In this document: in pieces, positions 12,721-28,334 of the stretch
Layout: every line of letters begins with the position of its first letter
Position numbering within the stretch: position 1 is the stretch's first letter
Origin: Kiritimatiellota bacterium
GTDB lineage: Bacteria > Verrucomicrobiota > Kiritimatiellia > CAIQIC01
DNA length: 37,877 nucleotides
Direction: 5' to 3'
NCBI GenBank assembly: GCA_026398385.1
Contig: JAPLSZ010000256.1
Span: 1-37,877, forward strand
The notes under the pieces: model-generated
Database searches by the model: none
Told to the model about the DNA's origin: nothing
The model's input: the letters and a program-made list of their open reading frames with translations, nothing else
Position numbers and translations under genes: made by a program

Positions 12721-13529
12721 TGTAGGCCGGGTCTCCGACCCGGCGGAGAAAGAGAAAACATGGTGTAGGCCGGGTCTCCGACCCGGCGGAATGAGAGATG
12801 ATCATGAGCGAAGATCAAAAATTACCTCATCGGCTAAGACGACTTTGTGTCTCACGCACGGAACGAATGCGCCCGCTTTTCTTTGTGACCATTTGCGCCC
12901 ACAGCCGGTGTCCATTGCTGGCAAATGACGCTGTTCATCGGCAATTCCTAGATTTCTGCCGGCGCGCCCCGGAGAAGTTGCAGGTTCATGTGGGGCGTTA
13001 TGTCCTGATGCCCGATCACATCCATGTGTTCGTCTCTTGCGCGGGTTCTCAGACCTTGTCGCGTTGGGTCAAGGCACTGAAAGGATTTTTGGCGAAGGGT
13101 TGGAGAGAGCAGAATCTTGCCGCGCCGTTCTGGCAGAAAAGCTTTTTCGATCATCTGATGCGGTCCGGCGAGAGTTATGCGGGAAAATGGAGTTATGTCT
13201 GCCAGAACCCGGTGCGGGCAGGGTTGGTCAAGACCGCGGAAGAATGGTTGCTGGCCGGTGAAATCGAAAGGCTGACCTGGGATTAAACGCTGAACAAAGA
13301 ACGCCGCCTAGGAGAAGAAGATCTGTAGGCCGGGTCTCCGACCCGGCGGAATAATGGGAAACGGAGAACAAGAGCGCCGACTCGGAGAGTCGGCCTACAT
13401 TAGACTGGAAATAAGATCGTGTTGTAGGCCGGGTCTCCGACCCGGCGGGACAAAAGAAAAACATGGTGTAGATAAAAAGATCACGCGGAGAGAAAGAGAA
13501 AAGGCGCCGACTCGGAGAGTCGGCCTACA
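12721..13529. mobile_element. REP/BIME-like island around a RAYT gene
   Basis: Five hairpins flank the RAYT: 12721-12747, 12764-12790, 13324-13350, 13374-13399 (inverted), 13423-13449, plus a sixth at 13504-13529 (inverted). Core gccgggt-ctccg-acccggc or gccgact-ctccg-agtcggc, preceded by TGTAG. Confidence 0.9.
12798..13286 (+). CDS. REP-associated tyrosine transposase (RAYT, Y1_Tnp/HUH)
   Basis: MPDHIHVFV (HxH), candidate Tyr in SYAGKWSYVCQNPVRAGLV. Confidence 0.92.
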   Translation: MIMSEDQKLPHRLRRLCVSRTERMRPLFFVTICAHSRCPLLANDAVHRQFLDFCRRAPEKLQVHVGRYVLMPDHIHVFVSCAGSQTLSRWVKALKGFLAKGWREQNLAAPFWQKSFFDHLMRSGESYAGKWSYVCQNPVRAGLVKTAEEWLLAGEIERLTWD

Positions 13530-18472: not shown

Positions 18473-18497
18473 TGTAGGCCGGGTCTCCGACCCGGCG
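18473..18497 (+). repeat. Distant REP copy of the RAYT-associated family
   Basis: tgtaggccgggtctccgacccggcg. Confidence 0.9.
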
Positions 18498-19525: not shown

Positions 19526-19729
19526 TAGAGCTAATCCGGGTAATAAACTGTGTAATAGCCCGAATAGCTGCACGCTATCTGCGAGCTTGCCGGTGCCCGT
19601 CGTTTTCTGGTAATCGCCGGCGGTTGATAATCAACGAATGAAATAGAAAAATCAAAATTGATTTTGCGTAGCTTCGGCTGCTGTCCAAGACGAAACCTGG
19701 AAATTTCTGAATGGAGGACGGCGCTTTCG

Positions 19730-20384
19730 TCCTGCGGCGCCTGCAACGGGAAATGCGGCGCGTTGTGGCAGAGGTGCAGGTAAAACGGCTTCTTCGCCGC
19801 CAGCGCTTCGTCAATGAACTTGATGCCGAAATCGGTCCAGAGATCGGTCGAGTACCACTGGTTCGGAAGCGGGCCGCCGCGTGAACCAACGTTGGTGCCG
19901 TTGAGGAAGATCTCGGCCTTCGGCGAGTCGGGGTAATAGAATCCGCCGGCGGCGGCGTTGAGGCTGCGGTCGAAGCCGCGCGTCCATGGTGTCACGCCGC
20001 GTTCCTGGCCGACGTGCCATTTGCCGCTCATGATGGTGAAGTAGCCCGCGGGCCGCAAGACCTCGGCCATGGTGACGCAACGGTCGTTGAGGTGGCCCTG
20101 GTAGCCGGGCAAAGCTTTGTCCTCCATCATGTGGCCGACGCCGGCCTGGTGCGGGTAGAGGCCGGTCAGCAGCGCGCGGTATTATAGAACTGCGTGAAGC
20201 GCACGCCGCCCGCGGCGAGCGCGTCGAGGTTCGGCGTCGGGATCTCGCTGCCGTAACAGCCGATGTCGCTGTACCCCATGTCGTCCACCAGGATGACGAC
20301 GATGTTCGGCCGCGTCCCCGACAGGCCGGCCGCCCCGGCTTCCAGCGTGAGCAGCGCCAGGAGCACGGTCAGTATTCTTTTCAT
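19730..20384 (-). pseudogene. Sulfatase, N-terminal half only, frameshifted at the catalytic motif
   Basis: [48 protein letters not shown] then, in another frame, TGLYPHQAGVGHMMEDKALPGYQGHLNDRCVTMAEVLRPAGYFTIMSGKWHVG; similarity ends near HFPLQAPQDE. Confidence 0.85.
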
Positions 20385-27435: not shown

Positions 27436-27479
27436 GACCTAACTATAGACCATCCGGCCGGATAGTCTATGGTTAGGTC
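27436..27479. repeat. 44-bp near-perfect palindrome abutting the paaX-like stop codon
   Basis: GACCTAACTATAGACCATCCGGCCGGATAGTCTATGGTTAGGTC, two mismatched pairs. Confidence 0.95.
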
Positions 27480-28286
27480 TCACAAACGGCTAATAATCTG
27501 CCGGGCCAGGGTTCTATGGGTCTGATACACCTGCTGACCCAGATAGTTGTCGGGCCACAATTCCGCCGGCAAGAGCGGATCCGCCTCCATGACGGTCAAG
27601 TAGGCAGACTGCTGTTCGCGCAACAGGGCGATCAATTTATCGGCCGACCATGAGCCGGTTGAAAGTTGCTGGCGTGTTTCGGCCAACGCTGCCAGGAACC
27701 ATGTGTGCGCCTGATGAAGTTGGTGAAAATCCCAGGCCGCCGCGGCCAGTGCTGGCCCAGACTGTCCCAGTACGGTGCGCGCCTCAAACAAGAAGGCATA
27801 TTCATCCAGGCCTGCCGCATGGGTCAGATCATCGAAATCGTGCCGGATATCCCTCGCCGAGAGCCACACACTGCCCTGTAAATTGCCCATACGCAAATGT
27901 TTAAGATAAACACGCAGCACCTGCCGGTACCCGTGCTTGCTCTCCGGAATGTCATACACCAGCACATACCACCGCCCCGGCCAGGACTGGCGCCATAACC
28001 GCTCCGGCTGCAGGGTCGCGGACACACGACGCAGGCCTGCGGGCGCCAAGCTGAGATGGCGTGTATCCCCCAGCAAATCGGTCTGCACCACCAACCCCTG
28101 GCGCCGCAGCCGGTGTGCCGCCATGAAATAGGCGTTGGGCTTGAAGCCGCGGGATAAAGAAAAGTAACGGCCCCGCGCGGCCACGACCCGCCCGAGCAGA
28201 AACAACAGATCGAGAACCTCGTCGGTCACGCGCCGCGCCAGTACCCGTGGACAGAATTGCGGATGATGTAACCACGTCGCTTTCAT
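27480..28286 (-). CDS. PaaX-like transcriptional regulator
   Basis: N-terminal wHTH-like region; central RWYVLVYDIPESKHGYRQVLRVYLKHLRMGNLQGSVWLSARDI; C-terminal AAWDFHQLHQAHTWFLAAL. Preferred ATG 28286; the track start (28322) lies in the palindrome. Confidence 0.8.
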   Translation of the reverse strand: MKATWLHHPQFCPRVLARRVTDEVLDLLFLLGRVVAARGRYFSLSRGFKPNAYFMAAHRLRRQGLVVQTDLLGDTRHLSLAPAGLRRVSATLQPERLWRQSWPGRWYVLVYDIPESKHGYRQVLRVYLKHLRMGNLQGSVWLSARDIRHDFDDLTHAAGLDEYAFLFEARTVLGQSGPALAAAAWDFHQLHQAHTWFLAALAETRQQLSTGSWSADKLIALLREQQSAYLTVMEADPLLPAELWPDNYLGQQVYQTHRTLARQIISRL

Positions 28287-28292
28287 TCCACC

Positions 28293-28334
28293 ACCTAACA
28301 TTATACGTTCCGGCCGGAACATATAATGTTAGGT
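28293..28334. repeat. 42-bp near-perfect palindrome upstream of the paaX-like gene
   Basis: ACCTAACATTATACGTTCCGGCCGGAACATATAATGTTAGGT, one mismatched pair. Confidence 0.95.

Follow-up and report, generated by a model that had tools for sequence, protein, structure and literature searches.

A PaaX-like gene between two loopless palindromes

The stretch of DNA analysed here (the window, 37,877 nucleotides from a Kiritimatiellota bacterium) carries on its minus strand a gene for a PaaX-like protein of 268 amino acids beginning M-K-A-T-W (27480..28286), characterized with Pfam, AlphaFold and Foldseek. The gene lies between two palindromes that have no loop and were assigned to neither strand: a stop-side (3') palindrome of 44 bp, GACCTAACTATAGACCATCCGG|CCGGATAGTCTATGGTTAGGTC (27436..27479), in which 18 of the 20 central pairs are matched, and a start-side (5') palindrome of 42 bp, ACCTAACATTATACGTTCCGG|CCGGAACATATAATGTTAGGT (28293..28334), with 19 of 20 pairs matched. 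The stop codon (27480-27482) directly adjoins the former, and the likely ATG (28284-28286) is separated from the latter by 6 bp, which agrees throughout with the layout described in an earlier reading of the letters (hereafter the sequence-only reading). A second in-frame ATG at 28322 falls within the start-side palindrome, and the shorter start at 28286 is therefore preferred. Folded as single-stranded DNA, the stop-side and start-side palindromes reached z-scores of -5.4 and -7.3, respectively. An equally good palindrome occurred in about 1% of 272 control windows of the same size from related loci, compared with 56 of 72 gene-flanking windows, which excludes chance as an explanation for the flanking palindromes.

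The arms of the two palindromes differ at five positions, each of which had been described as matched in the opposite arm; three are indeed compensated, but the other two are mispaired in the stop-side palindrome. The TATAAT attributed to the gene strand of the start-side palindrome is present as well, but by symmetry it reads on both strands, it was not called in a promoter scan of the window, and it is gone from the gene strand of the congeneric orthologue (L017), which argues that it is no conserved promoter element. The neighbours of the gene encode a squalene-hopene-cyclase-like protein and proteins without a match, with a BatA protein further away; as the sequence-only reading had noted, there are no aromatic-catabolic genes among them. 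At 19531-20130 the window also contains a sulfatase-like ORF of 199 residues, which matches only profile positions 75-183 of 301 and is possibly a truncated gene.

Predicted fold and a Cas2/VapD-type site

Pfam recognised PaaX_M (1.6e-19) and PaaX_C (5.3e-5) in the window protein and no Y1_Tnp. Its layout comprises an N-terminal winged-helix region, a Cas2-like middle (approximately residues 101-178) and a PaaX C-terminal domain (approximately residues 186-265). The AlphaFold model is confident (pLDDT 86.7), and its best Foldseek matches are E. coli PaaX (8a39, E 5e-9) and Rv0674, which share the same predicted three-domain fold with PaaX_M and PaaX_C. The likeness of the middle domain to Cas2, proposed earlier, was upheld and extended to VapD, with weak matches in Foldseek (E 0.1 and above) and a weak match to the CRISPR_Cas2 profile (E 0.13).

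In an alignment of 22 family members, D112, E115, R121, Q137, S139 and D146 are invariant. The 12 sister-group proteins, too, all carry D112, R121, Q137 and S139, so that D112 is found in all 34; the codons of D112-I-P-E115, where the site begins, lie at 27942..27953 on the minus strand, as computed from the start at 28286. Cas2 and VapD depend on the equivalent Asp for their activity, to which Q33 and S35 also contribute in Sso Cas2 (PMC10491678); D112 and Q137/S139 match the catalytic Asp and Q33/S35 of the latter protein (PMC10491678). The central ferredoxin-like domain, the Asp on strand 1 and the Q-x-S turn are thus shared with Cas2/VapD (PMC10491678), whereas in the window protein this weakly similar domain is part of a fusion, with a winged helix before it and the PaaX C-terminal domain after it. 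We read D112/Q137/S139 in this family as a putative retained nuclease-type site, going by residue conservation.

PaaX repressors act by binding an operator and repressing transcription, and aryl-CoA releases them. The window protein differs from them in several respects. It scores 44.1 bits against the TIGR02277 equivalog, far under the cut-off of 264.55, and its gene lacks catabolic neighbours and has palindromes at both ends and dispersed. Its family keeps Asp112 and Gln137, which are absent from all five regulator-type PaaX proteins compared (three from plasmids, E. coli PaaX and Rv0674); two of the plasmid regulators adjoin aromatic-acid transporter and monooxygenase genes.

Paralogs, relatives and covariation of the palindromes

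The gene had been called solitary, which holds for the window contig but not for the genome: the source assembly (G000; Lentisphaerae-type, 3.66 Mb, 376 contigs) encodes three PaaX-like paralogs including the window gene, the other two being 71% and 54% identical and situated in other neighbourhoods. Each of the three has a palindrome of about 40-50 bp on both sides. These palindromes are alike within one copy, while their arms differ between copies (CCTAAC.., CCTCACATTTC.. and CATAACAAAAATC..), and TCCGGCCGGA is common to all. Solitary palindromes of the same three arm families are scattered over other contigs. In total, TCCGGCCGGA occurs 66 times in the source genome and its reversed control 22 times; among 55 sites that were read, about half are part of palindromes of the three arm families.

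With a profile of the three paralog proteins, relatives were found in 21 of 96 kin-group genomes, and a broader profile found PaaX-like relatives in 26 of 388 genomes across the phylum, the named records among them being uncultured Lentisphaerae. No relatives were found in viral contigs, and plasmids gave only distant matches of the regulator type. Flanking palindromes were present on at least one side in 33 of the 37 relatives examined and on both sides in 23; in four one-sided relatives, a contig end cuts the missing side, and four others (L024, L026, L028, L033) are without a good palindrome. In one gene copy after another of genus g53, the upstream palindrome comes right before the ATG, and the downstream one often overlaps the stop codon or else lies at it or close behind. 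The more distant sister group, which has a different N-terminus, is also palindrome-flanked, several of its palindromes being of the TGTCTCA type.

We aligned 52 palindromes by their centres. For 15 of the 20 pairs, Watson-Crick pairing holds in 42 or more of the 52, and for the weakest pair in 32; as only palindromes with at least 15 paired positions were included, these percentages are raised, but such a choice creates neither the common centre nor the variety of pair types. Eighteen of the 20 pairs beat the best of 300 shuffles, the other two being the fixed centre, and at 17 positions three or four pair types occur. CGRYCG, at the centre, is the only fixed part. Self-complementarity rather than sequence is therefore conserved across the palindrome family, as had been claimed from the window pair; the evidence is overwhelming family-wide, not in that pair. 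At the orthologous locus of g53, L214, L215 and L224 carry one palindrome type and L221 another at both ends. The N-terminal half of the L221 protein is 53% identical, compared with 63% in the remainder, a modest gap. This joint drift of both palindromes fits protein–DNA co-evolution.

Dispersed palindromes and their turnover

Eight genomes were searched with their own gene-flanking palindromes as probes, and all eight have matches elsewhere. Together with the flanks in 33 of 37 relatives, this answers in the affirmative the earlier question of whether palindromes and paaX homologs co-occur. G066 contains 17 copies identical over 40 bp and G036 contains 11 such copies of one palindrome family; in both genomes, the copies cease to be identical at the edge of the palindrome, and their flanks are unrelated. 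No direct repeats of at least 4 bp, as expected of a target-site duplication, were found at 51 palindromes. Solitary palindromes occupy convergent, tandem and divergent gene gaps, a placement that is rough as it relies on ORFs that are partly spurious in G000/G001 and G066, and this pattern is not that of promoter operators alone.

Comparison of G000 with G001, the only congeneric genome, revealed both shared and differing palindromes. Some solitary palindromes are common to the two genomes (L058/L153 and L054/L165), and those at G000:C109 and G000:C100:14815 are missing from G001 with both flanks aligning. The search for empty sites that the sequence-only reading had suggested showed presence or absence of palindromes between congeners, but no clean empty site of about 40 bp between G000 and G001, because these genomes, about 17% different in DNA, are too diverged between genes; the stretches missing in G001 comprise 140-300 bp of diverged intergenic DNA. 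Besides, the L106 and L152 palindromes of G001, at the 3' ends of an ACR3-like transporter gene and a short membrane-protein gene, are situated where gene order differs from G000, and may mark deletions or rearrangements.

Such dispersed sites could also be viewed as operators. An autoregulated DNA-binding protein would repress its own gene from the 5' palindrome, perhaps through a DNA loop to the 3' palindrome, with the solitary palindromes forming its regulon or serving as chromosome-organising sites (cf. Noc- and parS-type). The homology of the PaaX-like protein to transcriptional repressors, the promoter position of the 5' palindrome, the many intergenic solitary copies and the variation of palindromes between protein lineages, as with any operator, are all in line with this explanation. 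We nevertheless consider it unlikely, though the strongest of the rival explanations, since exact identity of 11-17 copies over 40 bp goes beyond the needs of an operator, copies are also located between convergent genes and differ between congeners, the stop-codon palindrome is conserved as well as the start-side one, and an invariant nuclease-type site would be without a role in plain regulation, D112 and Q137 being absent from the regulators compared. The earlier surmise that autoregulation does not account for the whole arrangement is borne out by the phylum-wide co-occurrence, the equal conservation of the 3' palindrome and the dispersal of solitary cognate copies.

Inheritance of the gene

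The window element is found at the same locus in the congener G001, 83% identical over 6.5 kb and with both palindromes kept; the stop-side palindrome of this orthologue (L017) has changes in both arms. In g53, one PaaX-like locus is common to four species. This conservation of position argues that the gene is mostly inherited vertically and is no simple IS-like unit. Among the matches found, there were no recent PaaX-like gene duplicates and no near-identical copies within a genome.

An autonomous element, in which palindrome, gene and palindrome move together and leave solitary palindromes as remnants, either decayed or non-autonomous, is accordingly improbable in our estimation. Its compact layout of one gene with a palindrome at each end, the copies at unrelated places within a genome and the patchy distribution (21/96 and 26/388 genomes) would suit such an element, but the orthologues are syntenic in G000/G001 and in the four g53 species, the paralogs within the source genome are only 54-71% identical and thus old, and the ends lack direct repeats. 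The small selfish element moving as an 899-bp unit, which the sequence-only reading had envisaged, is not supported, given the same syntenic genes, the age of the paralogs and the lack of a recent gene duplicate among the matches.

Y1 transposases and the RAYT of the window

Y1 transposases are present in all ten genomes tested, and the window itself carries a canonical RAYT (12798-13286, plus strand, within 12722-13470), flanked by GTAG REPs (GTAGGCCGGGTCTCCGACCCGGC) at 12722, 12765, 13325 and 13424, with another at 18474; many more GTAG REP copies occur in the source genome. The suggestion that another transposase (e.g. of the RAYT/IS200-type Y1 family) moves the palindromes, the role of the PaaX-like protein being confined to their control or protection, could appeal to these enzymes, but it is very improbable, as palindromes of the PaaX family were found at 0 of 30 Y1 transposase loci versus nearly every PaaX-like gene, and the GTAG REPs of the same genome are unlike the PaaX-linked palindromes in sequence and structure. 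The presence of a canonical RAYT with its REPs in the window thus indicates that the RAYT and PaaX-like systems coexist and differ.

Proposed mechanism and relation to known systems

We favour, with moderate confidence, a resident system that spreads (or maintains) palindromes, REP/RAYT-like and built on a PaaX-family protein. It appears that the palindrome of about 40 bp, and not the 899-bp unit, spreads, as in REP/RAYT. We infer that the PaaX-like protein mobilises the palindromes, through binding, dimerisation, cleavage and an insertion step. It would recognise two inverted half-sites of about 20 nt, probably as a dimer via the winged helix, which would seat the Cas2/VapD-like domains, with their Asp/Gln/Ser site intact, at the invariant CGRYCG centre. 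These domains could then cut or process the palindrome or its hairpin, and processing would lead to copies of the 38-42-bp unit being inserted elsewhere. The gene would remain mostly vertical, with the solitary palindromes as the mobile population.

Such a spreading system is favoured by the paralogs with a palindrome pair each, the dispersed copies identical over 40 bp, the flanking palindromes of most relatives with their covarying pairs, the invariant site residues, the placement in gene gaps of all three kinds, the lack of these palindromes at the 30 Y1 loci and the palindromes that differ between G000 and G001. The absence of a clean empty site of about 40 bp, of target-site duplications and of recent gene transposition speaks against the system, as do the four relatives without a good palindrome. 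Furthermore, another enzyme could move the palindromes, and Cas2-type nuclease chemistry alone does not explain the copying of a palindrome to a new place. A bolder proposal, which we advance tentatively, is that those PaaX-fold proteins whose Cas2/VapD site is intact constitute a new class of DNA-mobilising enzymes, each cutting its own 40-bp palindrome in hairpin or cruciform form and spreading it. If so, palindromes could be dispersed by a route that needs neither a Y1 nor a DDE enzyme, and the regulator PaaX proteins would be related proteins in which the catalytic Asp was lost.

The palindrome-spreading system favoured here has much in common with REP/RAYT, and the earlier comparison with IS200/IS605-type, palindrome-ended elements proved a good lead. 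In both, a gene stands between two cognate palindromes (PMC2817692), solitary copies are dispersed, partly identical and co-evolving (PMC3116915), each paralog has its own palindrome flavour (PMC2817692, PMC3116915), and the gene is single-copy, mostly vertical and apparently unable to move itself (PMC3116915). By contrast, RAYT (TnpA-REP, IS200/IS605-related) is a Y1 (HUH) enzyme, whereas a PaaX/Cas2 fold is predicted here; the PaaX-linked palindromes are symmetrical, loopless, about 40 bp long and centred on CGRYCG without a GTAG or GTGG head, and number in the order of 10-30 per genome, compared with hundreds of REPs. As the defining Y1 enzyme is absent, the PaaX-like system is no member of the REP/RAYT family. 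The CGTC-tagged REPs are likewise scattered palindromes for which a dedicated transposase is not known (PMC3733652), but these are tagged hairpins with unpaired ends and not loopless palindromes. Unlike a classical insertion sequence, the PaaX-like unit lacks target-site duplications and recent whole-unit copies.

A literature search, from whose scope preprints and most subscription journals were excluded, found no published description linking PaaX with dispersed palindromes. Our analyses suggest a new way of spreading short repeats, by a protein that has no known transposase among its relatives. To our knowledge, many bacterial repeats are without a known enzyme; here, gene and repeats are tied together phylum-wide, and residues for mutation are already marked. 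PaaX-fold proteins would gain a possible nuclease role, Cas2, VapD and PaaX could be linked evolutionarily beyond the CRISPR and toxin systems, and an independently evolved counterpart of REP/RAYT would let the persistence of such systems be asked about afresh.

Flanks and composite repeats

The bases next to solitary palindromes in G066, e.g. L119-L126, continue the palindrome for up to 7 nt, and do so significantly more often than in shuffled flanks (p 0.005 and 0.001 after removal of a shared repeat), a possible signature of hairpin-type insertion. One G036 family is marginal (p 0.016) and the extension is not significant elsewhere; as it is uneven between genomes, we do not rely on it as evidence of insertion. 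At L115, L118, L119, L121, L123 and L124 of G066, one edge of the 40-bp palindrome coincides exactly, in several copies, with the end of an AT-rich repeat of about 110-140 bp. This repeat may represent either a longer, non-autonomous element or some other repeat hit by palindrome insertion. In the source genome, two identical family-A palindromes lie 303 bp apart (L008, G000:C9, 250-594); their left flanks are nearly the same and their right flanks are related, and they probably represent a tandem duplication taking in the palindrome. At L047 (2249-2321), two adjacent GACGATCGTC-centred palindromes are nested in a larger inverted repeat, and this composite palindrome is located directly upstream of a sister-group PaaX-like gene.
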